This document shows positions 4,291 to 50,019 of a stretch of DNA of 64,000 nt, in pieces. The first letter of the stretch is position 1, and each line of letters begins with the position of its first letter. The stretch comes from Angustibacter luteus (GTDB taxonomy: Bacteria; Actinomycetota; Actinomycetes; Actinomycetales; Angustibacteraceae), in assembly GCF_039541115.1 (NCBI RefSeq), contig NZ_BAABFP010000002.1:372001-436000 (forward strand), in the 5' to 3' direction. Under the pieces are notes generated by a model. That model saw only the letters and a program-made list of their open reading frames with translations, was not told the origin of the DNA and made no database searches. A program made the translations under genes and the position numbers.

Positions 4291-4635
4291 TCAGTCCGCG
4301 CCGCCCCGTGGCTCGTCCCCCAGCTCGTCCAGCAGGACGACGGTGCCGCCGCTGCGCCAGTAGATGCTGTCCGCGCGGGTCAGGAACTCCTCGTCGACCA
4401 GGTAGCGGCGCAGCGCGGCGACGTCCGGGTGGAACGCGCGCAGCAGCGCGTTGACGTCGCGCTCGGGATAGCGCACCCCGACGTCGAACACCTGGGAGAT
4501 CTGGTCCAGCAGCACGATCCGCTTGGACCGCCGCGCCGGGATGGACCGCAGCGACCCGTCCGCTCGCACGAACGCCCGCAGCACGGCCTCGCGCCGCGCG
4601 TCGTCGTCCGGTTCCTGGCGCGCCACGTCCAGCAC
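4291..4635 (-). CDS. DUF2087 domain protein
   Basis: This is a 114-aa soluble protein from a GTG at 4635; a second GTG at 4626 is also possible. The central stretch VRYPERDVNALLRAFHPDVA followed by LRRYLVDEEFLTR and YWR is the hallmark of DUF2087, a small winged-helix-like domain often found alone or fused to ArsR-type regulators. The family is usually taken as a putative transcription regulator. It is divergent from hisN, with the two starts only 44 nt apart, so it may share or influence the hisN promoter. Confidence 0.75.
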   Translation of the reverse strand: MLDVARQEPDDDARREAVLRAFVRADGSLRSIPARRSKRIVLLDQISQVFDVGVRYPERDVNALLRAFHPDVAALRRYLVDEEFLTRADSIYWRSGGTVVLLDELGDEPRGGAD

Positions 4636-4679
4636 GCTACGTCAGCCGCCGTGGCCCGGCCAGGCGGTAGGTTGCCAGC

Positions 4680-5489
4680 GTGCCGACCTACGACGACGAC
4701 CTCCGGCTGGCGCACGTCGTCGCCGACCAGGTCGACGCGCTGACGCTCGACCGCTTCCGCTCCGCCGACCTGCGGGTGGAGACCAAGCCCGACCTGACAC
4801 CGGTCTCGGACGCCGACCTGCGGGCCGAGGAGCTGGTGCGCAGCCAGCTGAAGCGCACCCGTCCGCGCGACGCGGTGCACGGCGAGGAGATGGAGACGAC
4901 GGGCCACGGTCCGCGGCGCTGGGTGATCGACCCCATCGACGGCACCAAGAACTTCGTCCGCGGCGTCCCGGTGTGGGCCACCCTGATCGCCCTGGTGGAC
5001 GACGACCAGCCGGTGCTCGGGCTGGTCTCGGCGCCGGCGCTGCAACGGCGGTGGTGGGCGGCGGTCGGCTCCGGCGCCTGGAGCGGGCGCAGCCTGTCGC
5101 AGGCGAGCCGGCTCGCCGTGTCGGCGGTGGGCGCGGTGGCGGACGCGTCGCTGTCGTACTCCAGCCTCGGTGGGTGGCGGGACGCTGGACGCGCGGAGGC
5201 GTTCGGTGCGCTCTGCGACCGGTGCTGGCGGACCCGCGCGTACGGCGACTTCTGGTCCTACATGCTGGTTGCCGAGGGCGCCGTCGACATCGCCTGCGAG
5301 CCCGAGCTCGCGCTCTACGACATGGCGGCCCTGGTGCCGATCGTCACCGAGGCGGGTGGCCGGTTCACCTCGCTGGACGGCGATCCCGGGCCGTGGGGCG
5401 GCAACGCGGTCGCCACCAACGGGCTGCTGCACGACGAGGTGCTCGCCGCGCTCGCTCAGCCGACCGGCACCGGCTCGCTCGACGGCTGA
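4680..5489 (+). CDS. hisN: Histidinol-phosphatase, inositol monophosphatase family
   Basis: The GTG at 4680 gives 269 aa. Actinomycetes use an IMPase-fold HisN to dephosphorylate L-histidinol phosphate in histidine biosynthesis. Metal-binding residues are visible: the GEE at about 61-63 and DPIDGTKNF at about 82-90. The C-terminal metal Asp is in LYDMAALVPIVTEAGG, where the common WD is replaced by YD. HisN is favoured over a general inositol phosphatase by the match to the actinobacterial HisN style (YGDFWSYMLVAEGAVDIACEP) and by the position beside aroA and rsgA. It is convergent with the MFS gene and their coding ends overlap slightly (5456-5489). Confidence 0.9.
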   Translation: MPTYDDDLRLAHVVADQVDALTLDRFRSADLRVETKPDLTPVSDADLRAEELVRSQLKRTRPRDAVHGEEMETTGHGPRRWVIDPIDGTKNFVRGVPVWATLIALVDDDQPVLGLVSAPALQRRWWAAVGSGAWSGRSLSQASRLAVSAVGAVADASLSYSSLGGWRDAGRAEAFGALCDRCWRTRAYGDFWSYMLVAEGAVDIACEPELALYDMAALVPIVTEAGGRFTSLDGDPGPWGGNAVATNGLLHDEVLAALAQPTGTGSLDG

Positions 5490-36787: not shown

Positions 36788-36836
36788 GCCCACACATCCA
36801 CTGCCACCACGCATTGCCACTACCGAGGGGGACACC

Positions 36837-37388
36837 ATGTCTGCACAGCCGAACCAACCCGACTGGGCGCCGAGCCCGGCCGACCCCATGCCCTACGCGC
36901 GGACCCTCGCGCCGGCGCCGTCCACCGACCCGGCGTCCGAGGACGACTTCAGCGACCTGGACGACCTCGACTCGTTCGACCCGGACTTCCCGGCGGCCGA
37001 TCCGCGACCGACGTCGGCGGACGACGTGCTGGACGACGAGGACGCGGGGCCCGACGACGTGACGGCCGACCAGGCGACGGCCGACCAGGCGACGGCCGAC
37101 CAGTCAGCAGCACCGCAGCCGGCCGCACCCGTTGCGGTCGTTGCGGCACCGGCGAAGAAGGGCCTGCGGACCAGCGAGTTCTGGCAGACCCTGTTCACCC
37201 AGCTGCTGGCGCTCGCGGTCTCCGTCGTCGCCCTGTTCGGCGGCCGGCTGGACTCCACCGCGGTGCAGGCCCTGGTGCCGGCCGCGGCGCTGTTCGCCTC
37301 AGCGGCGTCGAGCGCCTGGTACAGCCAGTCCCGCAGCAAGGTGAAGTCCGCGCACCCGTCGACGCTCGTGCCGCCCGACGGGGTCTGA
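36837..37388 (+). CDS. Holin-like membrane protein with acidic disordered N-terminal half
   Basis: This 183-aa protein starts at the ATG at 36837. Residues 1-105 are Pro/Asp/Ala-rich and predicted disordered, including a threefold TADQA repeat. The rest holds LRTSEFWQTLFTQLLALAV and a second helix LVPAAALFASAASSAWYS, with a short connecting turn and a basic C-terminal segment (SQSRSKVKS). Two helices with this TSEFW start are typical of holin families in actinobacterial phages. Partnership with the adjacent CHAP endolysin is probable; the long acidic extension is unusual for a holin. It converges on the membrane protein gene (18-nt gap). Confidence 0.6.
   Translation: MSAQPNQPDWAPSPADPMPYARTLAPAPSTDPASEDDFSDLDDLDSFDPDFPAADPRPTSADDVLDDEDAGPDDVTADQATADQATADQSAAPQPAAPVAVVAAPAKKGLRTSEFWQTLFTQLLALAVSVVALFGGRLDSTAVQALVPAAALFASAASSAWYSQSRSKVKSAHPSTLVPPDGV
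37061..37103 (+). repeat. 15-bp tandem repeat inside the holin-like gene
   Basis: gacggccgaccaggc occurs at 37061-37075 and 37076-37090, with a third copy of 13 bases to 37103. It encodes TADQA units in the disordered region and could vary in number by slippage. Confidence 0.8.
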
Positions 37389-37393
37389 CGCGC

Positions 37394-37435
37394 CGGCCGA
37401 GCCGGTTCAGGCAGCCGCCTGGGCCGGCTCGGCCG
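37394..37435. terminator. Hairpin at the convergent ends of the holin-like and membrane protein genes
   Basis: CGGCCGAGCCGG (37394-37405) and CCGGCTCGGCCG (37424-37435) form a perfect 12-bp stem with an 18-nt loop. It covers the end of the minus-strand gene and may terminate both transcripts; no T-tract is seen. Confidence 0.5.
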
Positions 37436-38504
37436 CGCGGCGTTCGTCCAGCACCGGGCGGTACCGGTCGTACCAGGTCACGATGAGGCTCAGCAGCAGC
37501 GCGAAGAACAGCGCGTGGTCGACCTGGAAGCGGTTGCTCAGCAGGTGCAGCACCTCGGTGGTCGCCAGGTTGACCGCGGCGAGGCCGACGAAGAGCAGCA
37601 CCGACGTCATCATCGACCGGTGGCGCAGTCCGACCAGCAGGCTGAAGGCCGAGTCGATGACGACGTAGATCGAGGCCGCCACGACGATCTGGCTCGGCCG
37701 GGGAGTGGCCCCGGGGAGGATCTGCATGAAGATGACGATGATCAGGCCGATGAGGGCGATCTTCTCCAGCAGCGGCCAGCTGAACAGGCGGCCGGCCGGG
37801 CTGGTGACCGGCCGCAGCCGGTCGGCCAGGACGTGCAGGTTCCAGTCCTTGGCCGGGAGCACCGAGTGCAGCAGCCACCAGGTCACCGGAACCGCCGCCA
37901 CGAGCAGCACCACCAGCGTCGGGTAGACCCAGCCGTGCTCGTCCGCGAAGTCGGTGAAGTCCAGCTCGGCCACGTGGATCCACCACTCCTGCGGGAGCTT
38001 GATGAAGATCCAGATGAACGCCGCCATACCGATCACGAACCGCTTGCTCATCCGGCGCGGGTCCCAGCGCAGCCGGACGGTCTCGTAGGCGATGAAGAAG
38101 TACTCGAACGTGTTCGGGAAGACGAGCAGCAGCCAGCGCCACGAGCTGGGGTCCGCACTGTCGTGCAGCGTCTCGAAGATGGTCACGCCGACCAGCCGGT
38201 AGTACCAGAGGAACTGCGACACGGACACCGCGACCAGGTTCGTCCAGTTGCGCATCGTGGCCATGTAGGCCATGGCCAGGTAGTAGATGTCCAGCGACTT
38301 GTCGTAGCCCTGGTAGCTGTTCTCGACCGCGCTCCAGGTCGCCGGCGTGAGGTGGTTCTGGAAGATCGTCTGGTCCGCCGCGTCGATCACCAGGCAGGCG
38401 ATGATCGCGGGCAGGGGGATCAACGGCAGCAGCAGGGGGACGAGCAGGCGCAGGGCGACGATCACCGTGATGAGCGTGATGTCGCCGGCGGTGGCCGTAT
38501 CCAT
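37407..38504 (-). CDS. Polytopic membrane protein of unknown function
   Basis: The ATG at 38504 follows gaggagg and gives 365 aa. Eight or nine hydrophobic segments are visible, starting with TLITVIVALRLLVPLLLPLIP and ending with FFALLLSLIVTWYDRY. Conserved-looking charged and aromatic residues sit in loops, for example RNWTNLVAVSVSQFLWYYR, PNTFEYFFIAYETVRLRWDP and IKLPQEWWIHVAELDF. I do not recognise the family. It is divergent from nothing and lies upstream of the SCO4226-like gene (38567) on the same strand, 62 nt away, so cotranscription is possible. Confidence 0.7.
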   Translation of the reverse strand: MDTATAGDITLITVIVALRLLVPLLLPLIPLPAIIACLVIDAADQTIFQNHLTPATWSAVENSYQGYDKSLDIYYLAMAYMATMRNWTNLVAVSVSQFLWYYRLVGVTIFETLHDSADPSSWRWLLLVFPNTFEYFFIAYETVRLRWDPRRMSKRFVIGMAAFIWIFIKLPQEWWIHVAELDFTDFADEHGWVYPTLVVLLVAAVPVTWWLLHSVLPAKDWNLHVLADRLRPVTSPAGRLFSWPLLEKIALIGLIIVIFMQILPGATPRPSQIVVAASIYVVIDSAFSLLVGLRHRSMMTSVLLFVGLAAVNLATTEVLHLLSNRFQVDHALFFALLLSLIVTWYDRYRPVLDERRAAEPAQAAA

Positions 38505-38566
38505 GCTGGTTCCTCCTCGGGGGCTAGCCGAAGCATGGCAGCCAGCCCCCGCGGAGGACGAGCACC

Positions 38567-38818
38567 TCAGGTGATGTCGACGGAAACCTCGTAGACCTCA
38601 CCCGTGGGGTGGCCGGCCTGCTCGTGGATCCGCATCACGCTCTCCTTCGACGGCCCCGTGGACAGGCAGAACACCTTGCCCGACTCCGGGTCCAGCCAGG
38701 CCCGCTCGAAGCTGACCCCTTCGGTGTCCTGGATCGCCAGGTCCCGCTCGTGCGCCTCGCGCAGCTGGTCCTCGGTGACTCCCACGAAACCGCTGTGCAC
38801 ATCCATGAACCTCGCCAT
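38567..38818 (-). CDS. SCO4226-like nickel-binding protein (DUF4242)
   Basis: The ATG at 38818 gives an 83-aa protein with MARFMDVHSGFVGVTEDQLR, then AHERDLAIQDTEGVSF and HEQAGHPTGEVYEVSVDIT. These are the features of the DUF4242 ferredoxin-like fold, named for the Streptomyces nickel-binding SCO4226, in which histidine and acidic residues bind the metal. It probably has a regulatory or chaperone role in metal handling; no transporter is adjacent. It is divergent from a giant LuxR gene (194-nt gap containing two palindromes). Confidence 0.8.
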   Translation of the reverse strand: MARFMDVHSGFVGVTEDQLREAHERDLAIQDTEGVSFERAWLDPESGKVFCLSTGPSKESVMRIHEQAGHPTGEVYEVSVDIT

Positions 38819-38880
38819 GACCCGCTCCTGGTGCTCGGTGGACTATGCGTCGAGCATCGCCCCGGAGCCGTCGTCCCGTC

Positions 38881-38898
38881 ATCGGTCAGATGACCGAT
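38881..38898. promoter_or_regulatory. Perfect 8+8 palindrome in a divergent promoter region
   Basis: ATCGGTCA-ga-TGACCGAT is an exact dyad suitable as a dimer operator between the SCO4226-like gene and a LAL gene. Confidence 0.5.
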
Positions 38899-38919
38899 CC
38901 TGGCGGCCGCAGAGAGCAG

Positions 38920-38963
38920 ATCGTGGCAACCGCGCATCGCCCGTGATGCGAGGTTGCCACGAT
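38920..38963. repeat. 44-nt nested palindrome upstream of the second LAL gene
   Basis: ATCGTGGCAACC (38920-38931) pairs exactly with GGTTGCCACGAT (38952-38963). After one mismatch, CGCATC (38933-38938) pairs with GATGCG (38945-38950) round a 6-nt loop. The stem lies between divergent genes, so it is not a terminator for either; a repeat element or large operator is possible. Confidence 0.7.
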
Positions 38964-39011
38964 GTGGTGGGGACGCGAGCAGGGTGGCTACGGTGACGGC
39001 GAGGAGGTGAC

Positions 39012-41900
39012 GTGTCCGGACGTGACGTGGTGGCCTCGCCCGTCCTGGTCGGTCGCGACGAGCTGCTCGCCCTCGCCGGGCGACGGCTCGAGCAGGCTGC
39101 CGCCGGCCACGGGCACCTGCTCTTCGTGGCCGGCGAGGCCGGCATCGGGAAGAGCCGGCTGCTGGGTTCGGTCTCCCGCAGCGCCGAGCGGCTCGGCTTC
39201 TCGGTACTGCGCGCCACGGCGTTCCCGGGCGACCAGCAGGACTCCGGCGGGGTGCTGCTCGACCTGGCGGGCGACCTGCGCCGGGCCGGCGACGACGCCG
39301 CCCGGTCCGCCGGAGCCGTGCTGGCGGAGCGGCTGCGCGAACCCCAGCGCCGGGAGGGCGACCGGCACCGCCGGCGACGGCTGCTGGTGCAGGACCTGTC
39401 CGACGCGCTGACCGACCTGGACGACGTCCCCCGGCTCATCGTGCTGGAGGACCTGCACTGGGCGGACCAGCTCAGCCTGGAGGTGGTCGCCCATCTCGCG
39501 ACGCGGCTGCCGGGCCGGGCGTGCCTCATGCTGGGGGCCTACCGCAGCGACGAGCTGTACCCGCGGACGGCGATGCGCGACTGGCGGTCCCGGTTGCTGT
39601 CCGGGCGGCTGGCCGAGGAGGTCCGGCTGCCCCGGATGACGGCCGCCCAGACGGCGACGCTGGCGAGCGCCGTCCTGGGTCGACCGGCGCCGGCCCAGGT
39701 CGTCGCGGCCATCCACGACCGCAGCGACGGCATCCCGCTGCACATCGAGGAGCTGCTCGCTGCGGCCACCGACGAGGCGACGGGAGTGGTCCGGGAGCCG
39801 GACCTGCGGCACGTCCCCGACACGCTCGCCGACGCCGTCCTGGCGCGGGCCGCGGCGCTGCCCGACGACGTCCGGGCGATGGCGTCGGCGGCCGCGGTCA
39901 TCGGCCGGTCGTTCGACGTCGACCTGCTCGCCGACGTGACGGCGGCGGACGCCGAGACCGTGGACCGCTGCCTGCGCGAGCTGCGCTCGGTGTACCTGGT
40001 CCGGACGGGTGCCGGCCCGGCCGGGTTCGACTTCCGGCACGCCCTGATCCGGGACGCCCTCTACGACGACGTGCCGCTCCCCCGGCGCCGGTTGCTGCAC
40101 GAGCGGGTGGCCGAGGCCGCCGTCCGCCGCGGGTACCCGGATGCGTTCGTGTCCGCGCACTACGACCAGGCCGGGATGTCGGAACCGGCCTACCGGCACG
40201 CGCGGGCTGCGGCCCGCGCCGCCGCGACCATCTCGGCGCACCGCGAGGCGCTCGAGCTGGACCGACGGGCCCTGCGGAACGCGCCCGCCGACGTCGCACC
40301 GGCCGAGCTGGCGGACCTGCTCGCCGCGCTGGCGGGTGAGGCCGCCGCGGTGGACGACAACGACAGCGCGTGCGAGGCGTTCGAGCGGGCGCACGACCTG
40401 CGCCGCGCGGACGGTGACCTGGTCGGCGCGGCGGCCCTGGTCGCGCCGCTGGTCTCGGTGACCCACCTGCTCGGCGAGAGCCTGCCGCTGCGGGTGCGCC
40501 GGCTGCAGTCGGCGCTGGACAGCATCGAGGGGCTGCCGGACGCCGAACCGGTCCGGGCCGGGCTGCTGAGCGGCCTGGCCGCCGCGTACATGCTGGATCG
40601 CCGGCTCGAGGAGTCGATCCGGTACGGCGAGCTCAGCCGCGCGCTGGTCCAGGGAAGCAGCCACGGGAGCGGCGGCGAGCGGGCCGCCGACCTGAACACC
40701 GCCGCCACCCTCGGCTCCGTGCTGCTGTTCACCGGTCAGCTGGACGCCGGTCACGCGCTGCTCGAGGAGTCGATCACCCGGGCGGTCCAGGGGCACGAGG
40801 AGGCCGAGGCCGGGCGCGGCTACCGCATGCTCGGCACCTCGGCGTCAGTGCTGGTCGAGTACGAGCGGGCGGCCGGCTGGCTGCGGCGGGGCATCGACTA
40901 CGCGGACGCGGTGGAGCTGTGGAACCACCGCAGCTACATGAGCGCGCACCTGGCGCACGTGCACTGGGCGCGCGGCGAGTGGGCCGAGGCCGAGCAGACG
41001 GCCGAGCACGCCCTGGCGGACGGGCGGGGCGGGATCACCACCCGGATCACCGCGCTCTACGTGCTGGGGTACGTCCAGCTCGGTCGGGGCGAGCTGGACG
41101 CCGCCGACGACCTGCTGGCCCAGGCCCTGCAGCTGGGCGAGTCGATGGCCGAGCTGCAACGGATCTCGCCGCCGCTGTGGGGACTGGCGCAGAGCGCGGC
41201 GCTGCGCGGGGACCACGCCCGCGCCGTCGAGCTGTGCGAGCGCGGCTACGCGCTGTCCCGGGAGGTGGCGGACGCGGCGTACCTGTTCCCGTTCCTGGTG
41301 ACCGGCGTGCGGGCGCACCTGAGCTCCGACGGGAGTGGCGGGCTCGCGCGCGACTGGTTCGGCCAGGTGCGGGACGCGTTGGTGGCCCGGTCGATTCCCG
41401 GCACCCTGCCGGCCGTGGACCACGCGCGGGGACTGCTCGAGCTCGACTCCGGTGACCTCACGGCCGCCGACGCGAGCCTGACGGACGCCGCCGCGGCCTG
41501 GGGCGCACTGGGTCGGTTCTGGGAGGGTTCCTGGGCGGTCCTGGACCAGGCCACCGCTGCGGTTCTCGGACGTCGTCCGGCGCAGGCCGTGGCCCTGGCC
41601 GAGCAGGTCCGCGCGAGTGCCGGACCGGTCGCGGCGCGGCCCCTGCTCGACGCGGCCGGCGCGGTGCTGGAGCAGGCCCGACCGAAAGCGGCGACCACCC
41701 GCTGGCACCCGTTGAGCGAGCGCGAGTTCGAGGTCGCCGCCCTGGTCGCCGAGGGGCTGACGAACCGGCAGATCGCCGAACGGCTGTTCCTGTCGCCGCG
41801 GACCGTGTCCGCCCACGTCGAGCACATCCTCAGCAAGCTGGGCGCCGCCCGACGCGCCGAGATCGCCGCCTGGGCGAGCCGGCGGCCCGCGGAGGGCTAG
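39012..41900 (+). CDS. Second LAL-type LuxR regulator
   Basis: The GTG at 39012 follows gaggagg (39001-39007) and gives 962 aa. The AAA module has LVGRDELLALAGRRLEQ, Walker A GEAGIGKSRLL (about 34-44) and Walker B VLEDLHWADQLS (about 140). A long TPR-like middle runs to about 885, and the LuxR HTH at the end reads LSEREFEVAALVAEGLTNRQIAERL and RTVSAHVEHILSKLGAARRAE. Same STAND architecture as the gene at 32856 but only loosely similar in text. It lacks a coupled partner. The target is unknown; the neighbouring SCO4226-like or Ser-repeat genes are candidates. Confidence 0.93.
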   Translation: MSGRDVVASPVLVGRDELLALAGRRLEQAAAGHGHLLFVAGEAGIGKSRLLGSVSRSAERLGFSVLRATAFPGDQQDSGGVLLDLAGDLRRAGDDAARSAGAVLAERLREPQRREGDRHRRRRLLVQDLSDALTDLDDVPRLIVLEDLHWADQLSLEVVAHLATRLPGRACLMLGAYRSDELYPRTAMRDWRSRLLSGRLAEEVRLPRMTAAQTATLASAVLGRPAPAQVVAAIHDRSDGIPLHIEELLAAATDEATGVVREPDLRHVPDTLADAVLARAAALPDDVRAMASAAAVIGRSFDVDLLADVTAADAETVDRCLRELRSVYLVRTGAGPAGFDFRHALIRDALYDDVPLPRRRLLHERVAEAAVRRGYPDAFVSAHYDQAGMSEPAYRHARAAARAAATISAHREALELDRRALRNAPADVAPAELADLLAALAGEAAAVDDNDSACEAFERAHDLRRADGDLVGAAALVAPLVSVTHLLGESLPLRVRRLQSALDSIEGLPDAEPVRAGLLSGLAAAYMLDRRLEESIRYGELSRALVQGSSHGSGGERAADLNTAATLGSVLLFTGQLDAGHALLEESITRAVQGHEEAEAGRGYRMLGTSASVLVEYERAAGWLRRGIDYADAVELWNHRSYMSAHLAHVHWARGEWAEAEQTAEHALADGRGGITTRITALYVLGYVQLGRGELDAADDLLAQALQLGESMAELQRISPPLWGLAQSAALRGDHARAVELCERGYALSREVADAAYLFPFLVTGVRAHLSSDGSGGLARDWFGQVRDALVARSIPGTLPAVDHARGLLELDSGDLTAADASLTDAAAAWGALGRFWEGSWAVLDQATAAVLGRRPAQAVALAEQVRASAGPVAARPLLDAAGAVLEQARPKAATTRWHPLSEREFEVAALVAEGLTNRQIAERLFLSPRTVSAHVEHILSKLGAARRAEIAAWASRRPAEG

Positions 41901-42259
41901 CGGACGGCTGACCGCCAGAGCCGGTGCGTCACCAGGGCCAGCGAGAGGGCGCCGACGCCGACCGCGACCAGCCGGGAGCCACGAAGCGGACCGGCGGCCT
42001 CGGCCTGCATCACCCCGCCCTGGGACTGCCAGGACAGGACGCCGGACCCGGACTGCCCGGACATCAGTGAACCGTTGCTCTGCCAGGACAGGGCGGACAC
42101 CATCGACTGCGCGGACCCGATCGACAGCAGGGACATCGCCGACCCCACGGACCCGATGGACAGCACCGACCCGATGGAGCCGATGGACAGCACCGACCCG
42201 GTCGACCCGATGGACAGCACCGAGCCCTCGGACCACAACGACCAGCGGGAACCGTCCAC
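41897..42259 (-). CDS. Tail-anchored protein with a perfect Ser-x-x repeat array
   Basis: The GTG at 42259 gives 120 aa. Ser occupies every third position from residue 4 to residue 70 without exception (23 serines), then again at 76 and 79. Within it a 9-residue unit GSVLSIGSx is repeated three times (12-38). The filler residues are mostly Val, Leu, Ile, Gly, Ala, Met, Trp and Gln. A likely C-terminal transmembrane helix is at about 95-112, followed by RLWRSAVR. There is no signal peptide. Such strict period-3 could form a beta-solenoid or polyproline-II-like bundle. I do not recognise a named family. It overlaps the LAL stop by four bases and lies 31 nt downstream of the SemiSWEET-like gene. 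Confidence 0.8.
   Translation of the reverse strand: MDGSRWSLWSEGSVLSIGSTGSVLSIGSIGSVLSIGSVGSAMSLLSIGSAQSMVSALSWQSNGSLMSGQSGSGVLSWQSQGGVMQAEAAGPLRGSRLVAVGVGALSLALVTHRLWRSAVR
42146..42226 (-). repeat. Three 27-bp repeats encoding GSVLSIGSx
   Basis: The coding DNA for residues 12-38 of the Ser-x-x protein is three near-identical 27-bp units, consistent with growth of the array by tandem duplication. Confidence 0.85.
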
Positions 42260-42290
42260 GTGCGAACGCTACCGAACGCGCCGCTGCGCG

Positions 42291-42650
42291 TCAGGCCGCG
42301 GCGAGCGCTTCCGGCCGGGCGGCGTCGTCCAGCACCAGCCGGTCGAGCTCGTCGAGGTCGAGGACGTCCTGCGCCACCGCCGCCGCTGCCGCCGCCGTCC
42401 GCTGCTCGCGCCAGGCCCACACGCCCAGCACGACGCTGACCGGGAAGGTCACGTAGCCCGGGGCGCCGATCTCCGGCGTCGAGGTGACCCAGCCGTAGGA
42501 CAACCACAGCGCCGCCGTCGCCGCGCCGAGCGCCCAGCCGTACGGCGACCCGCTCGGTCGTCGCTCCCGGATCGCCTGGACCAGGTGCGGCAGGATCGCC
42601 ACGGTTGCCAGGAGGTTGCCGATGAGGGCGATGAGGCCGGGGGCGGACAC
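42291..42650 (-). CDS. SemiSWEET/PQ-loop membrane protein
   Basis: I start it at the GTG at 42650 (119 aa); a TTG at 42659 would add three residues. Three helices are visible, and the first is followed by AILPHLVQAIRERRPSGSPYGW, the P-x-x-x-Q loop of PQ-loop/SemiSWEET sugar transporters (here P-H-L-V-Q). SemiSWEETs dimerise to facilitate sugar flux. The C-terminal 40 residues (LDLDELDRLVLDDAARPEAL) are acidic and probably cytosolic, longer than usual. It is upstream of the Ser-x-x gene on the same strand. Confidence 0.8.
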   Translation of the reverse strand: MSAPGLIALIGNLLATVAILPHLVQAIRERRPSGSPYGWALGAATAALWLSYGWVTSTPEIGAPGYVTFPVSVVLGVWAWREQRTAAAAAAVAQDVLDLDELDRLVLDDAARPEALAAA

Positions 42651-42681
42651 AGCAGTCAACTTTCGGGAGCAGGCGTGGCGA

Positions 42682-42710
42682 CGGCGCCCCCGCAACGTGC
42701 GGGCGCGCCG
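42682..42710. terminator. Strong GC hairpin upstream of the SemiSWEET-like gene
   Basis: CGGCGCCCCCGC (42682-42693) and GCGGGCGCGCCG (42699-42710) pair at 11 of 12 positions with a 5-nt loop. It is the second of two hairpins downstream of the polyester hydrolase gene. Confidence 0.45.
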
Positions 42711-42713
42711 AAG

Positions 42714-42777
42714 GGCTGGCGCGAGGACCGCGCCGAACAGGGGGACTTCTTCCCTGTCGGCAGGCCTCGCGCCAGCC
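42714..42777. terminator. Two-stage hairpin downstream of the polyester hydrolase gene
   Basis: GGCTGGCGCGAGG (42714-42726) and CCTCGCGCCAGCC (42765-42777) form a perfect 13-bp outer stem. Inside, GCCG-a-ACAGGG (42732-42742) pairs with CCCTGTCGGC (42752-42761) with one bulged A. It is well placed to end the hydrolase transcript, but the structure is more elaborate than a simple terminator. Confidence 0.55.
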
Positions 42778-42823
42778 TGAACCCGGCCCGCGGCGGTGGT
42801 GCTGTGAGCCCGGCCACACGGCC

Positions 42824-43723
42824 CTACGCGTGCGGGCAGGTGTCCCGGTACTCGAGGATCAGCGTGGACGGCGCCGGCGCCGGGCAGAGGAACTGGTCGT
42901 AGCGGGTGTCGTCGTCCACGAACCGCTTGAGCCACGCGATCGTGTACTTCGCCGTCGTGGTGTCGGCGCTCGTCGGGAAACCGTGGCTCGCGCCGCGCCG
43001 CTCCAGGTACGCCTTGTCGGGCGCGTTGGTCATCGACGCGTAGAACCGCTCGGCGTGGCTGGCGACCGGCGCCGTGGTGTCCCGCTCACCGCCGAAGATG
43101 AGCGTCGGCACCCGGACGCTGCTCCAGGTCTTGGTGGTGTCCCACGGTGTCAGCGGCACCGACGCCTGCAGCGTGGGTCGCTTCGCCGTGGCCTCGATCG
43201 CGCCGCCGCCGCCCATCGAGTGGCCGCCGACCGCGAGTCGGGTTGGGTCGATCCGGGTGCGCACGGAGCTGCTCTTGGTCAGGTAGTCCAGGGCGGCGAG
43301 CAGCTGGGTGCCTCGGGATGCGGGCTGGTCGTATACGGACAGCGTGTCGATGACGATCACGACGAAGCCCTGCGAGGCCAGCCGCGGGCCGAGCCAGCTG
43401 AGCGCGGACTGGCTGGAGGTGAAGCCGGGCGAGAGCGCGACGGCGCCGAAGGTGCCCTGGGCGGTGCTGGTCGGGTAGGTGATCGTCCCGCCGCCGAACC
43501 CGCTGACGGCGGACCGCGCCACGGTGGTCTGGGCGACGGCGAACGAGCCGCGGGTGGCCTCGATGCTCGCGGTGGTCGGCGCCGGTCCGCGTTCGTAGGG
43601 GTTGGCCGCTGCGCGCGGGACCTCGCGGTCCACGGTGGCGGCGCCGGTAGTCGCGGTGGTGACGACGAGTCCGACGGCGGCGGCGGTGGCGAGAGCGGTC
43701 AGGACGTTCCGATGTCTGCGCAC
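42824..43723 (-). CDS. Secreted cutinase-type polyester hydrolase (PETase homologue)
   Basis: The GTG at 43723, preceded by agagga, gives 299 aa with a signal peptide to about residue 30. The mature part closely follows Thermobifida cutinase: NPYERGPAPT, SGFGGGTITYP, ALSPGFT, GHSMGGGG, PLTPWDTTKTWSSV and AWLKRFVDDDTRYDQFLCP. The triad is Ser169, Asp215 and His247. The oxyanion aromatic is Phe101 (Tyr in TfCut2), Trp194 of the substrate clamp is present, and Cys280-Cys296 should form the C-terminal disulfide. The enzyme should hydrolyse cutin-like or synthetic polyesters, possibly PET. It is divergent from a LuxR regulator and followed by a two-stage hairpin. Confidence 0.93.
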   Translation of the reverse strand: MRRHRNVLTALATAAAVGLVVTTATTGAATVDREVPRAAANPYERGPAPTTASIEATRGSFAVAQTTVARSAVSGFGGGTITYPTSTAQGTFGAVALSPGFTSSQSALSWLGPRLASQGFVVIVIDTLSVYDQPASRGTQLLAALDYLTKSSSVRTRIDPTRLAVGGHSMGGGGAIEATAKRPTLQASVPLTPWDTTKTWSSVRVPTLIFGGERDTTAPVASHAERFYASMTNAPDKAYLERRGASHGFPTSADTTTAKYTIAWLKRFVDDDTRYDQFLCPAPAPSTLILEYRDTCPHA

Positions 43724-43788
43724 GGTCCTCTTGCTCCTTCGGGTGGGGGTGGGATCACAGTGCCTGCGGCGGACGTGGTTCCGGTATC

Positions 43789-43814
43789 GGCGAAATCACC
43801 GGTTTGTGGCGAAA
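43789..43814. promoter_or_regulatory. Direct GGCGAAA repeats in the hydrolase-LuxR promoter region
   Basis: GGCGAAA occurs at 43789-43795 and 43808-43814, 19 bp apart; the second lies in a short dyad GGTTT-n6-AAACC. It is a candidate binding site for the adjacent LuxR-type regulator. Confidence 0.35.
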
Positions 43815-43891
43815 CCTTGTGCGTGCCCGCTGCCGTCGTGTTTCATCGACCCGAACCCCTCGCCCGCGCGCCGCCCACCGCTGGAGGTCCG

Positions 43892-45397
43892 ATGTCGACG
43901 CGGGACGCGAGGTCGACGTCCGAGCGGGACGTCGACGGCGAGAAGGCCTTGCGACGCGGCGAGGGCGAGCTGCGGGACGGTGAGCCGGGGGTGGCGGCCC
44001 GCCAGCTGGCGGTGGCCGCGCAGCGGCTGACCGGCGAGCGGCGCGGGGTCGCGGTGATGCTGGCCGCCGAGGCGCACCGGATGGCCGGGGACGTCACGGA
44101 CTACGCGGACCTCGCCCGGCTGACCGCGGGTGAGGACGTGCCGCCGGTGGTGCGCTCGTACGTCGCCGGCGTGGTCGCCGTCTCGGCCGGAGACCACTCC
44201 GCCGCCGTCCGCGCGTTGCGCACCGTGCTGGACGCCGGGCGCGCGGACAGCAACGTCCGAGAGTCGTTGTGGCTCACCGAGACCGCGCTGCTGCTGGGCG
44301 AGGCCGACCGGTGCTTCGAGCACGCAACGGCGGCGGTCAGCCGGGCCCGGCTGACGGGTGACGCGGAGCTTCTGCCGACCGCGCTGGCCCAGTACGGCGC
44401 GGCGGCTCTGGTCCTGGACAGGAACCGGGCCGCCGTCGCCGCCTGCTCGGCCGGAGTGGTTGCGGCACAGGCAGTCGGGCAGCGCAACAGCCTGGCCGAG
44501 AACCTCGTGATGCAGGCCGTTGCGGCCATCGCCCGCGGTGAGCGCGACGTGGCCCTGGACCTCGTGACGGCCGCCCTGCCGGGCATCGGGCAGCGCGGCC
44601 TGGGCAAGCAGGCCGCCTGGGCGACGTGGACGCTCGCGTGCGTGGACCTGCTGGACGAGCGACCCGACGAAGCGCTGGGTCGGTTGCGCACGATGGCCAC
44701 CGGGCTGGGCCGGGCCCACCCGGCGATGCGGGTGATCATCGCGCCGCAGCTCGTCGAGGCCGCCGTGCGCTGCGACCGCGCGACCGAGGCGGCGGCGGCG
44801 CTGGCCGCGTTCGAGCACTGGGTGGGCTGGTCCGCGAACCCCAGCTGGCTGGCGCAGGTCCATCGCTGTCACGCCCTGCTCACCGACGACGACGCCGTGG
44901 CGGCCGAGCACTTCGAGACCTCGATCGCGCTGCACTGCCAGGCCGGGTCGACCCTCGAGCTCGGGCGCACGAAGCTGCACTACGCCCGGCGGCTGCGTCG
45001 CGAGCGCCTGCCGTCGGCGGCCCGCGAGCACCTGCGGGATGCGTTGCGGCTGTTCCAGACCGAGGACGCCGGGTACTGGGCCGAGCAGGTCCGGGCCGAG
45101 CTGCGAGCCACGGGCGCTCCCGACGTCGACGGCGGCAGCGCCGGGTCGGGCGCGGCCGCGCTCGCGCTGAGCCCGCAGCAGGCGCAGGTGGCCCGGCTGG
45201 TCGCCGACGGCCTCACGAACCGGGAGATCGCCCGCTCGATGAGCATCAGCTCGCGGACCGTCGACCACCACCTGCGCAACATCTTCGCCCGGCTCGGCGC
45301 GCGCTCTCGGGTGGAGGTCGCGACGGCCTGGCTCAGGTTCTCGGTGGCGCGCCCGACCACGCCCGGGCCAGCAGGTCCACCAGATCCAGCCGGCTGA
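43892..45397 (+). CDS. LuxR-type regulator with TPR-like region, lacking the AAA module
   Basis: I use the ATG at 43892 with ggagg at 43883-43887, giving 501 aa; a much longer open frame to 42830 is antisense to the hydrolase gene. Residues about 20-415 are helical TPR-like repeats, and the last 65 form a LuxR HTH (LSPQQAQVARLVADGLTNRE and SRTVDHHLRNIFARLGARSR). It looks like the C-terminal half of a LAL protein without the ATPase. It is divergent from the polyester hydrolase (168-nt gap), so it probably controls that enzyme. Its 3' end overlaps the convergent macA-like gene by 65 nt. Confidence 0.87.
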   Translation: MSTRDARSTSERDVDGEKALRRGEGELRDGEPGVAARQLAVAAQRLTGERRGVAVMLAAEAHRMAGDVTDYADLARLTAGEDVPPVVRSYVAGVVAVSAGDHSAAVRALRTVLDAGRADSNVRESLWLTETALLLGEADRCFEHATAAVSRARLTGDAELLPTALAQYGAAALVLDRNRAAVAACSAGVVAAQAVGQRNSLAENLVMQAVAAIARGERDVALDLVTAALPGIGQRGLGKQAAWATWTLACVDLLDERPDEALGRLRTMATGLGRAHPAMRVIIAPQLVEAAVRCDRATEAAAALAAFEHWVGWSANPSWLAQVHRCHALLTDDDAVAAEHFETSIALHCQAGSTLELGRTKLHYARRLRRERLPSAAREHLRDALRLFQTEDAGYWAEQVRAELRATGAPDVDGGSAGSGAAALALSPQQAQVARLVADGLTNREIARSMSISSRTVDHHLRNIFARLGARSRVEVATAWLRFSVARPTTPGPAGPPDPAG

Positions 45398-46412
45398 CCG
45401 GCCGAGGGTTCGCGTAGGGCGCGGACAGCACCTGGTCGACGACCGTGGTCAGGTCGGTCTCGGGCATGCCGAGCGAGCGCAGCGACGACGGCGCCCCCAG
45501 CAGCGCAGCGAGCTCGTACAGCTGCGCGCCCGCCGACCCCGGACCGCCCAGCGCCTGCTCCAGCCGGCTGGCGACGTCCGGTACGGCGGGCAGGTTGAGC
45601 GCCAGCACGTGCGGCAGGACGACGGTGTGGGTGGCGGCGTGCGGCAGCGAGGACACGCCCCCCAGGGCGTGGCACAGCCGGTGGTGCAGCGACATCGTGG
45701 TGGCGCCCAGGCAGGCGCCGCACAGCCAGGCGCCGTAGAGCGCGCTCGTGCGGGCGCCCAGATCCGTTGGCGCAGAGACGATCCTCGGCAGGGCGCGGAC
45801 GAGCCGGCGGATGCCGTCGTCGGCCATCAGCGAGACCACCGGGCTGCGGTCGGGCGCGTAGAGCGCCTCGGCGGCGTGCGCGAGGGCGTTCATCCCGCTG
45901 GTCACGGACACCTCGACGGGCAGCGACAGGGTCAGCGCCGGGTCGTAGAGCACGCTGACCGGCAGCACCCGCCGGTCGCGTCCGGTGCGTTTCGTCGTCC
46001 CGTCGCTGATCCCCCAGATGGACGTCATCTCGGACCCGGCGTACGTCGTCGGGACGGCGACGACGGGCAGCCCGGTCGTCAGGGCCACCGCCTTGGCGAG
46101 ACCGATCGCCGACCCGCCACCCACGGCCAGCAGACCGTCGGCGCCCAGTCGCTGCGCCTCGGCTCGGGCCCGGTCGGCGTCCTCCTGCGGGACGTGCATC
46201 CGCGCCCCATCGAGCAGCCCAGCACGCCTGTGCCGCAACGGTTCCGACAGGCGCTCGGCGAGCTCGCGGTGCCCAGGCGTGCACACGACGAGCAGTGAAC
46301 CGAGCGTGAGGTCGTCGACCTCCGCCACGAGGTCGCCGGCCACGCCCGGTCCGAACCGGACGCGCATCGGCAGCGCCTCGTAGCGGAACGGTTCCGGCGG
46401 GTCACTGCTCAC
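45333..46412 (-). CDS. Maleylacetate reductase-like iron-containing alcohol dehydrogenase
   Basis: I choose the GTG at 46412 (359 aa, the family length); an ATG at 46457 is also possible. The NAD(P)-binding part has LLAVGGGSAIGLAKAVAL and PTTYAGSEMTSIWGI, and the metal region reads SGMNALAHAAEALY and MSLHHRLCHALGG. Asn in place of Asp in GMNALAH is typical of maleylacetate reductases. The enzyme reduces maleylacetate to 3-oxoadipate in resorcinol or chlorocatechol catabolism. It is divergent from a VOC-isomerase gene pair, suggesting an aromatic catabolic locus. Confidence 0.87.
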   Translation of the reverse strand: MSSDPPEPFRYEALPMRVRFGPGVAGDLVAEVDDLTLGSLLVVCTPGHRELAERLSEPLRHRRAGLLDGARMHVPQEDADRARAEAQRLGADGLLAVGGGSAIGLAKAVALTTGLPVVAVPTTYAGSEMTSIWGISDGTTKRTGRDRRVLPVSVLYDPALTLSLPVEVSVTSGMNALAHAAEALYAPDRSPVVSLMADDGIRRLVRALPRIVSAPTDLGARTSALYGAWLCGACLGATTMSLHHRLCHALGGVSSLPHAATHTVVLPHVLALNLPAVPDVASRLEQALGGPGSAGAQLYELAALLGAPSSLRSLGMPETDLTTVVDQVLSAPYANPRPVSRLDLVDLLARAWSGAPPRT

Positions 46413-46550
46413 GTGAGGAGTGGATCGCACGGGCGCGGCCCGGGTCAACGGGCGCATCAGGATTTTCTTGCGCTGACAACTACCACCCCGGGCGCGCCGG
46501 AGTTACGATGCGCAGGTCGGCGCGAGGACGCGCCCCCGAGGAGGTCGCAG

Positions 46551-47063
46551 ATGCCCACGGACGACGAGCTGGTCACCCTCGAGGCCCGACGCGGCGAGCT
46601 GCGCGAGCAGTACCTCACGCCGGCAGCGGACCGGCCGGCCACCATCGGGCGCGGTATCCACCACGCGGCCCTGATCTGCTCGGACGTCGAGCAGACGATC
46701 CGGTTCTACCAGGACCTGCTTGGCTTCCCGCTGATCGAGCTGGTCGAGAACCGCGACTACCCGGGCTCGTCGCACTTCTTCTTCGACCTGGGCAACCAGA
46801 CCCTGCTGGGCTTCTTCGACTTCCCCGGGCTCGGTCTCGAGCCGGGCATCGAGGCCATCGGCGGGGTGCAGCACATCGCGATCTCCGTACCCCGGGACCA
46901 GTGGGAGCTGGCCCAGCAGCGGTTGGACGCGGCCGGCGTCCCCTACGGAGGCCCCGACCAGGGGATCGAGGAGTCGATGTACCTCAAGGACCCCGACGGC
47001 ATCCAGATCGAGCTGCTCAGCGACCCGCTCATGTACTTCGGCGGACGCCAGCTCGACGAGTAG
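46551..47063 (+). CDS. VOC-superfamily (glyoxalase/ring-cleavage dioxygenase fold) protein
   Basis: The ATG at 46551, with gagg at 46541, gives 170 aa. After a 35-residue helical N-terminus, the VOC fold supplies metal ligand positions in GIHHAALICSDVEQTIRFYQ, IEAIGGVQHIAISVP and GIQIELLSDP. Such enzymes include glyoxalase I, ring-cleavage dioxygenases and thiol transferases. The adjacent maleylpyruvate isomerase-like gene (14 nt downstream) favours a role in aromatic or thiol-linked catabolism; the reaction cannot be assigned. Confidence 0.82.
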   Translation: MPTDDELVTLEARRGELREQYLTPAADRPATIGRGIHHAALICSDVEQTIRFYQDLLGFPLIELVENRDYPGSSHFFFDLGNQTLLGFFDFPGLGLEPGIEAIGGVQHIAISVPRDQWELAQQRLDAAGVPYGGPDQGIEESMYLKDPDGIQIELLSDPLMYFGGRQLDE

Positions 47064-47077
47064 AGAGGCGCCAAGTC

Positions 47078-47896
47078 ATGAGCACGTGGAACGCGATGTC
47101 GTACGAGGGCAAGGACACCATCCTGCGGGTGGTGCGCACGGAGGCCGAGCACTTCTTCGCCCTGGCGGAGGCACCCGGCGCCTGGGAGCGGACCACCCCG
47201 TGCGACGGCTGGACGTCGCGGGACCTGGTGGCGCACATCATCGACACCACCGAGGGCTACTTCAAGGCGTTCGACGCGGCCCGCGGCACCGGCGACGCGG
47301 TGCCCGCACCGCACGGGCTGCCCGCGATGGCGGGGAAGGTCAACGAGGCGGCGACCGCCTTCCGCGGCACCCCGCAGACCGAGATGATGGACCGGTTGCG
47401 CGCGGACTTCGAGAAGATGCAGGGCATCCTCGAGGCGGTCGGCGAGGACGACTGGACGGGTTTCCTGGTCACCCACCCCTACATGGGCCCGGTGCCGGCG
47501 TTCTTCTACGCGGCCGGTCAGCTGATGGACTACGGCGTGCACTCGTGGGACATCCGGCAGGGCAGCGGCGCGGCGCACGGCCTGCACGGCGACGCGGCGG
47601 ACCTGCTGGTGCCGTTCATGTTCGAGATCTGGCGCGGCACGGTGAAGTCGGACCAGGTCAGCGAGCCGTTCACCATCGGGATCCGGGTCACCGGGCGCAA
47701 CGCCGGCGACTACCGGGTGACCGTCGGGCCGGACGGGCTGAGCTACGAGACGGGCGAGCTGGAGAGCCTGCCCGCGTACCTCGAGTTCGATGCGGGCAGC
47801 CTGGTGCTGACCGCGTTCGGGCGCAGCAACTCCGGGACGGTGCGCGGCGACCTGGCGCTGGCCGAGCAGTACCTCAACCTGTTCTTCCGGATCTAG
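47078..47896 (+). CDS. Mycothiol-dependent maleylpyruvate isomerase family protein
   Basis: The ATG at 47078 gives 272 aa. The DinB/MDMPI N-terminal domain has ERTTPCDGWTSRDLVAHIID, with the His of the metal site, and YGVHSWDIRQG with the second. The C-terminal domain (about 190-270) resembles the SCP2-like MDMPI_C fold. Characterised members isomerise maleylpyruvate to fumarylpyruvate in gentisate catabolism using mycothiol. Cotranscription with the VOC gene supports an aromatic pathway; other members of this large family have different thiol-linked jobs. Confidence 0.83.
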   Translation: MSTWNAMSYEGKDTILRVVRTEAEHFFALAEAPGAWERTTPCDGWTSRDLVAHIIDTTEGYFKAFDAARGTGDAVPAPHGLPAMAGKVNEAATAFRGTPQTEMMDRLRADFEKMQGILEAVGEDDWTGFLVTHPYMGPVPAFFYAAGQLMDYGVHSWDIRQGSGAAHGLHGDAADLLVPFMFEIWRGTVKSDQVSEPFTIGIRVTGRNAGDYRVTVGPDGLSYETGELESLPAYLEFDAGSLVLTAFGRSNSGTVRGDLALAEQYLNLFFRI

Positions 47897-47918
47897 CGGG
47901 TAGGGGCTCGGGTGCGGG

Positions 47919-49298
47919 TCAGTGACCCGGACCGGTGATGATCTGCTGGCGCTCCGACTCGTGCGCGCCGCCCTTCGCCTCCAGCGTCTTGCAGGCCTCC
48001 TCGATGTCGCGGGCAAGCGTGTCCACGTGCTCGCGACTCATCGTCTCCTTCACCAGCGCCCGCATGATCGTCACGTCCTGCGCGTCGGGCGGCAGGGTGT
48101 AGGCCGGCACCATCCAGCCGCGCTCCGCCGATAGCTGCCAGGCGATGTCGAACTCGTCGTAGCTGTGCTTCTCGGCCAGCTGGAACGCGACCAGCGGCAG
48201 CTGCTCGTCGCCGTCCCCGATGAGCTCGAACTGGCCCATGGCCTGCAGCTTCTCGGCCAGCAGCTGGGCGTTCGCCTGCATGTTCTGCATGATGTACGTG
48301 TAGCCGGCGCGGCCGTACCGCACGAGGTTGTAGTACTGCGCGAGGACCATCGCCGAGCCCGTTGAGAAGTTCAGCGTGAACGTCGCGTCGGTCTTGCCGA
48401 GGTAGTTCTCCTCGAACACCAGGTCGTGGTTGAGGTCGGCCGTCTCGCGGAAGACCAGCCAGCCGATGCCCGGGTACACCAGGCCGAACTTGTGCCCGGA
48501 GACGTTGATCGAGCGCACCTGCTCGAGCCGGAAGTCCCACGCGGTGTCCGGGTACAGGAACGGCCAGACGAACCCGCCGCTCGCGCCGTCCACGTGCAGC
48601 GGGACGTCGATCCCGCGCTCGCTCTTGATCCGCAGCAGCAGGTCGTTGATCCCGCCGATGTCGTCCTTGTGCCCGGTGAAGGTCGTGCCCAGCACCGCGG
48701 CCACGCCGATGGTGTTCTCGTCGACGTGCGGCTCGACGTCCTCCGGCCCGATGGTGTACTTGCCCGGCTGCAGCGGCACGATCCGCGGCTCGACGTCGAA
48801 GTACCGGCAGAACTTCTCCCACACCACGTGCACGTCCCCGCCGAAGACCAGGTTCGGACTCTCCGTGGATCCGCCCTCGGCCTTGCGGCGCTTGCGCCAG
48901 TTCCACTTCAGGGACAGGCCGCCGAGCATGATCGCCTCGGACGACCCCTGGGTGCGCGCGCCGGTCGTCTCCCCCGGGGCGTGGAACAGGTCGGCGAGCA
49001 TCCGGATGCAGCGCTGCTCGATCTCGGCCGTGCGCGGGTACTCCGCGTGGTCGATGAAGTTGCGGTGCAGGTTCTCCGCGATGATCCGCTGCGCCTCCGG
49101 CTCCATCCACGTGGTGACGAAGGTGGCGAGGTTGCGGGCGGGGTCCCCCTCCAGGGCGATGTCCTCACCGACGAGGCGCATCGCCTCGACGGCGGACATC
49201 CCGGACTCCGGGAAGGTCTTGGTCGGCACCTCGGCGGTGAGGAACCGGTTGCCGAACAGGGCCCGGTCGGCGTCCGTGAACTGGCGCGAGCTGGTCAT
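47919..49298 (-). CDS. gadB: Glutamate decarboxylase
   Basis: The ATG at 49298 gives 459 aa, the size of GadB. PLP-enzyme features are clear: GSSEAIMLGGLSLKW near 118, HVDGASGGFVWPF with Asp238, and the lysine Lys270 in NVSGHKFGLVYPG. The enzyme turns glutamate into GABA, using up protons for acid resistance. A short palindrome CGGGTCAGTGACCCG (47915-47929) covers its stop. Two membrane protein genes lie directly upstream (52-nt gap), though neither is a recognised GABA antiporter. Confidence 0.96.
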   Translation of the reverse strand: MTSSRQFTDADRALFGNRFLTAEVPTKTFPESGMSAVEAMRLVGEDIALEGDPARNLATFVTTWMEPEAQRIIAENLHRNFIDHAEYPRTAEIEQRCIRMLADLFHAPGETTGARTQGSSEAIMLGGLSLKWNWRKRRKAEGGSTESPNLVFGGDVHVVWEKFCRYFDVEPRIVPLQPGKYTIGPEDVEPHVDENTIGVAAVLGTTFTGHKDDIGGINDLLLRIKSERGIDVPLHVDGASGGFVWPFLYPDTAWDFRLEQVRSINVSGHKFGLVYPGIGWLVFRETADLNHDLVFEENYLGKTDATFTLNFSTGSAMVLAQYYNLVRYGRAGYTYIMQNMQANAQLLAEKLQAMGQFELIGDGDEQLPLVAFQLAEKHSYDEFDIAWQLSAERGWMVPAYTLPPDAQDVTIMRALVKETMSREHVDTLARDIEEACKTLEAKGGAHESERQQIITGPGH

Positions 49299-49350
49299 CG
49301 CGACTCCTTAGGTTGCCCCCGACGCTAGGGCCGCCGCCGCGGCGTCCGCC

Positions 49351-50019
49351 TCACCCGGTGAGGGTGGTCTGTCGCCAGGCGGGGAGCATGAGCGCGGCAC
49401 CGACGAGGAAGCAGACCGCACCCAGCAGGGTGCCGATGATCGAGACCTGGACGTCGATCAGGTCGCCCGTGCCGGGCACGACGTAGCTGGCGATCGCCGA
49501 GAACATGAACAGGACCGAGCCGAGCATGTTCACCCAGGCGATCCACCAGACGACGAGGCCGCGTCGCACCGCCAGACCGATGCCGAGGCTCGCGATCGCG
49601 AAGCCGCTGGCCACCAGGAACAGCGTCGACCCGAAGAAGTCCGGTCGCCAGACGTGCTGGTCCTCCTGCTCGACGGTCGCGTTGTGCACCAGGGCCAGCA
49701 ACGTGCTCACGTTGAAGAACAGCGTGCCGGGGAACTGCGTCGCCGCAGCCAGCCAGCCGCGGTCGTGCGGCAGCCAGCCCCAGAACCGGACCGGTCCGCG
49801 GCTCCCTCGCTGGGCGACGTCCGTCATGGCGGGGCTCTGCGCCTGCACGAGCTGGGCGTAGGAGGCGGACGTGAAGAACAGCGAGCCCACGAAGTAGGTG
49901 ATCGCGTCCGGCGTCCCACCCACCGCGTTGGCGTACGCCGGCACCGAGCCGAGCACGAAGCACGCCGAGCCGACCATGAACAGCCACGCGATGGTCGCGT
50001 TCAGCCGGGCCGGCCTCAT
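49351..50019 (-). CDS. Six-helix membrane protein, YrhK-like segments
   Basis: The ATG at 50019 overlaps the upstream stop (ATGA), giving 222 aa. Hydrophobic segments begin with IAWLFMVGSACFVLGSVPAY and FVGSLFFTSASYAQLVQA and end with VSIIGTLLGAVCFLVGAALML. The pattern of GS-x-x-F near helix starts resembles YrhK-domain proteins, but I hold that loosely. Coupling to the gene upstream and proximity to gadB suggest an operon of three. Function unknown. Confidence 0.65.
   Translation of the reverse strand: MRPARLNATIAWLFMVGSACFVLGSVPAYANAVGGTPDAITYFVGSLFFTSASYAQLVQAQSPAMTDVAQRGSRGPVRFWGWLPHDRGWLAAATQFPGTLFFNVSTLLALVHNATVEQEDQHVWRPDFFGSTLFLVASGFAIASLGIGLAVRRGLVVWWIAWVNMLGSVLFMFSAIASYVVPGTGDLIDVQVSIIGTLLGAVCFLVGAALMLPAWRQTTLTG

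Follow-up and report, generated by a model that had tools for sequence, protein, structure and literature searches.

A PETase-family hydrolase gene of Angustibacter luteus, its operator-like element and a divergent LipR-type regulator without an ATPase module: a probable two-gene switch for polyester or lipid-ester utilisation

What a PETase-family hydrolase does for its host, and what turns its gene on, are the questions raised by a locus of Angustibacter luteus in which such a gene lies back to back with the gene of a LuxR-type regulator. To our knowledge, the natural role and the inducers of PETase-family enzymes are poorly understood. A preliminary description of the 64,000-nucleotide stretch of DNA that contains the locus (here, the window) had presented the enzyme as a secreted PETase/cutinase homologue with an uncommon active site, and the regulator as its own. 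Our analysis points to a two-gene switch for the utilisation of polyesters or lipid esters, a reading to which we give a probability of about 0.7, set at this level because 48 of the 76 relaxed matches to the operator-like motif across the class are unexplained. It draws on the sequences of a hydrolase with the PETase fold, type I-like and with its triad intact, of an operator-like element common to many actinobacterial PETases and of a divergent LipR-type HTH protein (Table 1).

Table 1. Features of the locus, in window coordinates.
Feature	Start	End	Strand	Remarks
PETase-family (PF12740) serine hydrolase gene	42824	43723	minus	299 aa, GTG start at 43723
Divergent intergenic region	43724	43891		168 bp, with operator-like site and both ribosome-binding sites
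Putative -10-like box GCACTGT	43757	43763	minus	18-19 bp downstream of the operator-like site
LipR-type operator-like site CAAACCGGTGATTTCGCCGATACCG, oriented towards the PETase gene	43782	43806	minus	motif model
LipR-like LuxR-family regulator gene, TPR-type superhelix and C-terminal LuxR HTH	43892	45397	plus	501 aa

The hydrolase frame has the sequence AAGGAG 10 bases 5' of its GTG start, and the encoded protein matches the PF12740 profile with 375.7 bits (cut-off 28) over residues 38-297, the full domain; the NCBIfam equivalog model for BHET hydrolases, NF051441, scores 468 bits, below its cut-off of 520. The nearest PDB structures are PET40 (68% identity) and a Thermomonospora curvata hydrolase (63-67%), with the Streptomyces exfoliatus lipase 1JFR (66%), PHL7 (65-66%) and PSH1 also in this top group (range 63-68%), where the labels polyester hydrolase (PHL7, PET40) and lipase come from the titles of the PDB entries. 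Thermobifida cutinases rank after this group, at 54-56%. The profile score and the structural matches thus bear out the family assignment of the preliminary description, and the likeness to Thermobifida cutinase that it had noted holds as homology, although PET40, the T. curvata hydrolase, 1JFR and PHL7 are closer. An AlphaFold2 model, which it had proposed to build, has a mean pLDDT of 90.1 (input alignment of 33 sequences), with low confidence in residues 1-40 (block mean pLDDT 48-59); the signal peptide was called by eye from the basic-hydrophobic N-terminus. Judged by these matches, the enzyme is an additional member of the known PETase family with one notable residue.

The gene is the sole PETase match in its own genome at E <= 0.001. 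No PETase was found by searches of the one other genome of the genus examined (G001) and of two incomplete genomes of the same family, and in the order some match at E <= 0.001 occurred in 45 of 297 genomes, many of these matches being weak and partial. Only short DNA matches to the 13.2-kb block around the locus (36800-50000) were detected in G001, and the surroundings of the gene as a whole thus vary within the genus; as to transfer of the locus, this comparison shows that the block is not conserved there and not where it came from. Directly downstream of the PETase gene, on the same strand, lies a frame for a small protein (42291-42665, minus) with a weak, below cut-off likeness to SemiSWEET transporters, and a further frame on this strand (41897-42259) encodes 120 aa of Ser/Gly repeats such as GSVLSIGS, for which the loci searched gave no other match at E <= 1e-5.

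Under the definition of type I polyester hydrolases in the accessible text of PMC10076380, the enzyme has the type I features of His168 before the catalytic Ser, the absence of a second disulphide, Cys280 and Cys296 being its only cysteines, and the absence of the extended loop, with no insertion relative to PHL7 after the catalytic His. The type I Phe after the catalytic His, in subsite II, is Gly248 here, and PHL7 itself departs at this position with Leu210; the type II (IsPETase-like) set of Trp before Ser, extended loop and second disulphide was not found, given His168 and the two cysteines. PHL7/PES-H1 and PET40, both type I, share the fold at 65-68% identity, and PHL7 also shares a Phe at the oxyanion position (F63 in PHL7, Phe101 here; PMC10076380) but differs by Leu210 in place of Gly248. 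The residue after the clamp Trp is Asp195 in the window enzyme, whereas it is His in the PHL7 entry and Asn in PET40. IsPETase (type IIb) has Asp at this position too (Asp186; PMC10546322), but has Trp where the window enzyme has His168, and the window enzyme lacks both an insertion relative to PHL7 after the catalytic His and the second disulphide.

Phe101, Ser169, Trp194, Asp195, Asp215, His247, Gly248, Cys280 and Cys296 were all verified at these numbers, and the preliminary numbering was correct for the triad, the clamp Trp194, Phe101, Asp195 and the Cys pair. The triad Ser169/Asp215/His247, invariant across 33 aligned sequences (window included), and the aromatic clamp Trp194 are present, and Met170, His223 and Phe227 are retained; Phe101 and Met170 presumably form the oxyanion hole, by homology to PHL7. 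Residues were counted over 126 distinct mature homologues, window included, a set that was collected with the window protein as query and is therefore biased towards its own relatives. Trp194 occurs in 120 of the 126, Cys280 and Cys296 in 123 each and Thr217 in 17. At position 101, Phe (61/126) is about as frequent as Tyr (64/126), and at position 195 Asn is commonest (70), followed by His (40) and Asp (9). Phe101 and the Cys pair were accordingly rejected as special features: Phe101, which had been taken for a departure, is ordinary and is found in PHL7 as well (F63, PMC10076380), and the supposed norm of His after the clamp Trp gives way to Asn, with Asp186 in IsPETase (PMC10546322). What stands of the uncommon active site is Gly248 and, weakly, Asp195. 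Gly248, which the preliminary description did not single out, is the sole unique active-site residue within the set: Gly occurs there in the window enzyme alone (1/126), against Phe in 85, Ser in 21, Leu in 10 and Tyr in 4.

Gly248 directly follows the catalytic His247, is placed in subsite II and aligns to Leu210 of PHL7, Phe209 of TfCut2 and Phe243 of LCC. According to the accessible parts of PMC10076380 and PMC10869840, the equivalent position is a main activity-tuning site of engineered PET hydrolases: exchange of PHL7 Leu210 for A, I, V, T or S raises activity by 14-39% and exchange for Phe lowers it by 32%, TfCut2 F209S and F209A have two- to threefold activity (PMC10076380), and F243G is one of the substitutions by which a BhrPETase variant gained 10-34% at the expense of stability (PMC10869840). 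After the clamp Trp, wild-type IsPETase has Asp186 and D186H is stabilising (PMC10546322). Because small residues at the site raise the activity of engineered enzymes, we predict a wide, weakly binding subsite II.

Two other readings of the enzyme have to be weighed here. Gly248 could be a neutral or mildly harmful change on a fast-evolving branch, with no adaptive meaning. The end branch of the window enzyme on the PETase tree is long (0.48), which makes drift a real alternative, and other rare residues (Arg242, 2/126 in the distinct set and 1/124 in another count; Thr82, 3/124; Gly166, 2/124; window included) may go with this branch; set against this are the gains in activity that small residues bring at the equivalent site of PHL7 and TfCut2 (PMC10076380) and that F243G brings to the BhrPETase variant (PMC10869840), and we regard drift as quite possible, if somewhat doubtful. 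The other reading concerns the substrate: the enzyme might be a general secreted lipase or carboxylesterase of the Streptomyces LipA kind, with hydrolysis of polyesters and PET as a side activity. To this we give slightly under even odds, as 1JFR is among the nearest structures (66%), class 2 lipases stand after the operator-like motif at other places (3 scanned, all with PF01674) and the known LipR targets are termed lipases in the text of PMC12134079, but PET40 and PHL7 are equally near (65-68%) and the clamp Trp194, Met170, His223 and Phe227 are all retained.

The case for a switch begins in the 168-bp gap between the two genes. A 25-bp motif, AAGACCGGTGATTTCRCCGATGCG, was derived from words enriched in 121 non-window PETase upstream regions; the window's own upstream region, removed as a duplicate, was outside this training set, so that the window site is an independent test. 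With a score of 26.2 it is the best site in the 64 kb (next 13.6), and no other place in the genome fits the pattern as well (1 mismatch, against 2 for the runner-up); it lies 58 bp ahead of the PETase start codon, at 85 bp from where the LuxR gene starts. As it is the only genomic site with at most 1 mismatch, the regulon in this genome, as far as the pattern reaches, seems to consist of the PETase promoter alone; the site with 2 mismatches (C5:186399) was set aside, being probably intragenic, with a next frame that is TlyA-like by eye.

The motif lies upstream of 60 of the 121 non-window PETase genes, on the coding strand in 60 of 60. Over 65 named loci (1,086,133 bases), 36 sites scored at least 18, and 32 of these fall within 300 bp upstream of a PETase gene as called, compared with 0 in one shuffled copy of the 1.09 Mb; at a lower threshold, 2 of 605 shuffled upstream regions contained the motif. 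A chance match at PETase promoters was rejected on these two controls. Two of the four sites away from PETases stand directly before regulator frames (L033, L055) and point away from them, that of L036 probably precedes a PETase called with too early a start, and the fourth belongs to L075. A -10-like box, in spellings picked by eye, follows at offset 18 or 19, and at no other scanned offset, in 35 of 61 motif promoters (window included), the remaining 26 having none of the spellings tried; a consensus search found no sigma-70-like promoter. Direct repeats of GGCGAAA, another candidate, showed no enrichment in that orientation (2 found against 1.8 expected), and it was the enriched words that gave the motif.

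The divergent LuxR-type regulator that the preliminary description had reported is present, with GGAGG 4 bases 5' of its ATG and a C-terminal GerE domain (60.4 bits). A domain search for an N-terminal AAA/STAND ATPase in the 501-aa protein gave no AAA match, and the lack of this domain places it outside the LAL (large ATP-binding LuxR) regulators. Its model (pLDDT 90.8) is a helical superhelix with an HTH, and the structure matches are generic TPR folds, with domain III of MalT at rank 33; the regulator thus resembles the MalT/LAL (STAND) factors in its TPR-type superhelix and LuxR-type HTH but differs in the absence of the N-terminal ATPase/STAND module. Homologues adjacent to PETases mostly have 820-990 codons where they are not cut by the end of the locus, and AAA_16 was detected N-terminally in each of the 6 long homologues scanned. 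Over 14 aligned regulators (with an early start taken for that of L134), the residues before the column where the window's TPR part begins number 355-488 in seven long homologues versus 10 in the window regulator. Short homologues have 1-2 (L017, L021 and L023, whose C-termini are cut by the locus end) or 59-162 (L071, L085 and L089), and no AAA match was found on scanning L017, L021, L023 and L089; L071 and L085 are called short by length alone.

The HTH block S.RT[VI][DE]HHLR..F..L..RSRVE is common to the window regulator and 10 of 10 C-terminally complete homologues compared, and is absent from the window's other LuxR regulator. On these homologous TPR and HTH parts, and on the motif common to the target promoters, the window regulator is assigned to the LipR type by comparison with Streptomyces loci in lipA-lipR order, rather than with lipR of S. 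exfoliatus or S. coelicolor itself; as its sequence reads, the STAND module has been lost or was never present. Neither the missing ATPase module nor the operator-like site in the 168-bp gap had been picked up in the preliminary description. On the other side of the PETase gene, the window contains a second, full-length LAL regulator (39012-41900, plus, 962 aa, AAA_16 and GerE), whose HTH is without the LipR-type block.

The notion of a regulator peculiar to this locus found no support in a search of 394 genomes of the class for PETase and regulator, in which LipR-like genes are linked to PETases across the class. The window's own genome was left out of the counts, and with three candidate regulator places and six PETase places scored per genome, absences are uncertain. 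Among the matches listed, all 47 genomes with a regulator homologue (E <= 1e-50) also have a PETase (E <= 1.8e-50), compared with 75 of 393 genomes overall, and a PETase is found on the same contig within 10 kb for 34 of the 50 regulator places and within 3 kb for 22; at the relaxed E <= 1e-45 the figures among the matches listed are 51 of 55 genomes and, within 10 kb, 36 of 67 places. In the 39 pairs within 10 kb found among 91 places, the regulator is downstream on the same strand in 14, which is the Streptomyces lipAR order, upstream on the same strand in 12, convergent in 11 and divergent in 2. At L102 (Amycolatopsis bartoniae, about 4227-4700) a LipR-type regulator with AAA_16 and GerE domains has as its neighbour a PETase gene that seems to be split in two frames. 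At L078 (5543-7772), frames that by eye resemble an acyl-CoA synthetase and a TetR-type regulator lie between the LipR-type gene and the PETase gene, and would fit the use of fatty acids.

Whether the motif and the regulator belong together by function or by common ancestry bears directly on the proposed switch. Of the named loci, 61 have long flanks; motif and regulator (E <= 1e-10) occur together in 19 of these, the motif alone in 11, the regulator alone in 0 and neither in 31 (Fisher p = 1.8e-8, a value that ignores relatedness); a tree-based pair test on the PETase tree yielded 5 supported independent contrasts, of which 1 agreed and 4 were tied (p = 1). Phylogenetic structure is evident in the association. 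Enzymes of the Actinoplanes type, with which the window PETase groups, mostly have neither motif nor regulator, and in a weakly supported group the window and L065 have both and the other tested members neither. Of the 30 motif-bearing named loci, 11 have no such regulator inside the locus, which weighs against the switch. The motif might be bound by another regulator, or be part of a promoter class, with the LuxR link a matter of shared descent: there is a single informative independent contrast, and 48 of the 76 relaxed matches in the 394 genomes are placed beside no PETase and no LipR-type gene. We nevertheless hold this to be unlikely, since a regulator without the motif occurs in 0 of 61 loci, 15 relaxed matches are upstream of and divergent from a LipR-type gene, and 18 of the 23 exact matches read as being at a PETase or LipR-type gene. 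The absence of AAA_16, which the six long homologues scanned have, might suggest that the LuxR gene has lost its N-terminal part and its function and is decaying, with the operator-like site left over from an earlier state. This is quite unlikely, too; the 501-aa frame begins at the TPR boundary, has GGAGG 4 bases before its ATG and gives a model with pLDDT 90.8, and short homologues stand beside motif-bearing PETases in other lineages (L017, L021, L023, L089, L071 and L085).

A scan of the 394 genomes for the motif with at most 1 mismatch, counting places outside the window, gave 76 places, of which 13 precede a PETase, 15 are divergent from a LipR-type gene and 48 are others. Exact matches numbered 23, of which 18 were read as PETase or LipR-type. 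The backward pattern, run as a control, gave 0 among the matches listed, so chance as gauged by this control does not account for the 48 other places, at least some of which are inside coding sequence (L199). For 18 of the 63 non-PETase sites the neighbours were fetched and read. After each of the 13 fetched sites that diverge from LipR-type genes comes a frame for a small secreted lipase-like protein (8) or a LivG-type ABC ATPase (5), with PF01674 in 3 of 3 of the former scanned and PF00005 with PF12399 in 3 of 3 of the latter; the 5 other fetched sites precede unrelated or unclear frames, including a short-chain dehydrogenase and a TldD/PmbA protein. In one genus (g119), five genomes (G320, G338, G423, G450 and G459) have an identical one-mismatch motif, next to which neither a PETase nor a LipR-type gene was placed. 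A wider and distinctly tentative proposal, on which we would not insist, is that of a shared actinobacterial regulon in which a LipR-type regulator, a 19-25 bp operator and a fixed -10-like box would control PETases, class 2 lipases and LivG-type importers, and which in A. luteus would have shrunk to one target, with an ATPase-less regulator that would sense released acids or alcohols through its TPR part and a PETase that would have by nature, in Gly248, the open subsite II otherwise obtained by engineering.

The precedent for the two-gene switch is the lipA-lipR pair of Streptomyces. LipR directly activates the lipAR operon in S. exfoliatus and S. coelicolor according to the accessible text of PMC12134079; lipR of S. 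coelicolor is SCO0712 (PMC8857197), and its LipA degrades BHET (PMC11169514, an article in whose text the word 'LuxR' does not occur). Both there and here the neighbour of a PETase-fold hydrolase (1JFR, 66%) is a LuxR-family protein, an activator in Streptomyces, and a conserved element lies upstream (PMC12134079). Six Streptomyces loci (L045, L048, L052, L057, L077 and L101) have the motif and a homologous regulator directly downstream, and the window motif may correspond to the Streptomyces lipA promoter element. The differences are that the genes form one operon there but are divergent here, and that the window regulator has no ATPase part. Searches of the open literature, which leaves out most subscription journals, gave among the articles listed no PETase-LuxR link outside Streptomyces lipAR, and neither the class-wide spread nor lipases and transporters as targets nor a form without the ATPase occurred there; this absence is weak evidence of novelty. 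With lipA-lipR known in Streptomyces, the class-wide spread and the ATPase-less form look new.

In the proposed switch, the regulator would bind the ACCGGTGATTTCRCCGATG element and turn on the PETase promoter; lacking the ATPase module, it would have to rely on its TPR part alone for sensing, or else work with no gating by ATP. The PETase, probably exported by its signal peptide, would cut ester bonds of cutin- or suberin-like polyesters or of lipids by the Ser-His-Asp mechanism, perhaps with PCL and amorphous PET among its substrates, and Gly248 would make for a wide subsite II with weak binding, in the manner of the small residues engineered there. With a LuxR-type regulator divergent from the gene, the earlier idea of induction as something testable is upheld. 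An operator and regulator common to PETase, lipase and transporter genes would allow natural inducers to be found by reporter assays, and the conserved operator may open promoter-based searches for more polyester hydrolases. The ATPase-less regulator would serve as a natural test of what the STAND module contributes, and Gly248 as a natural variant at a well-studied activity hotspot.
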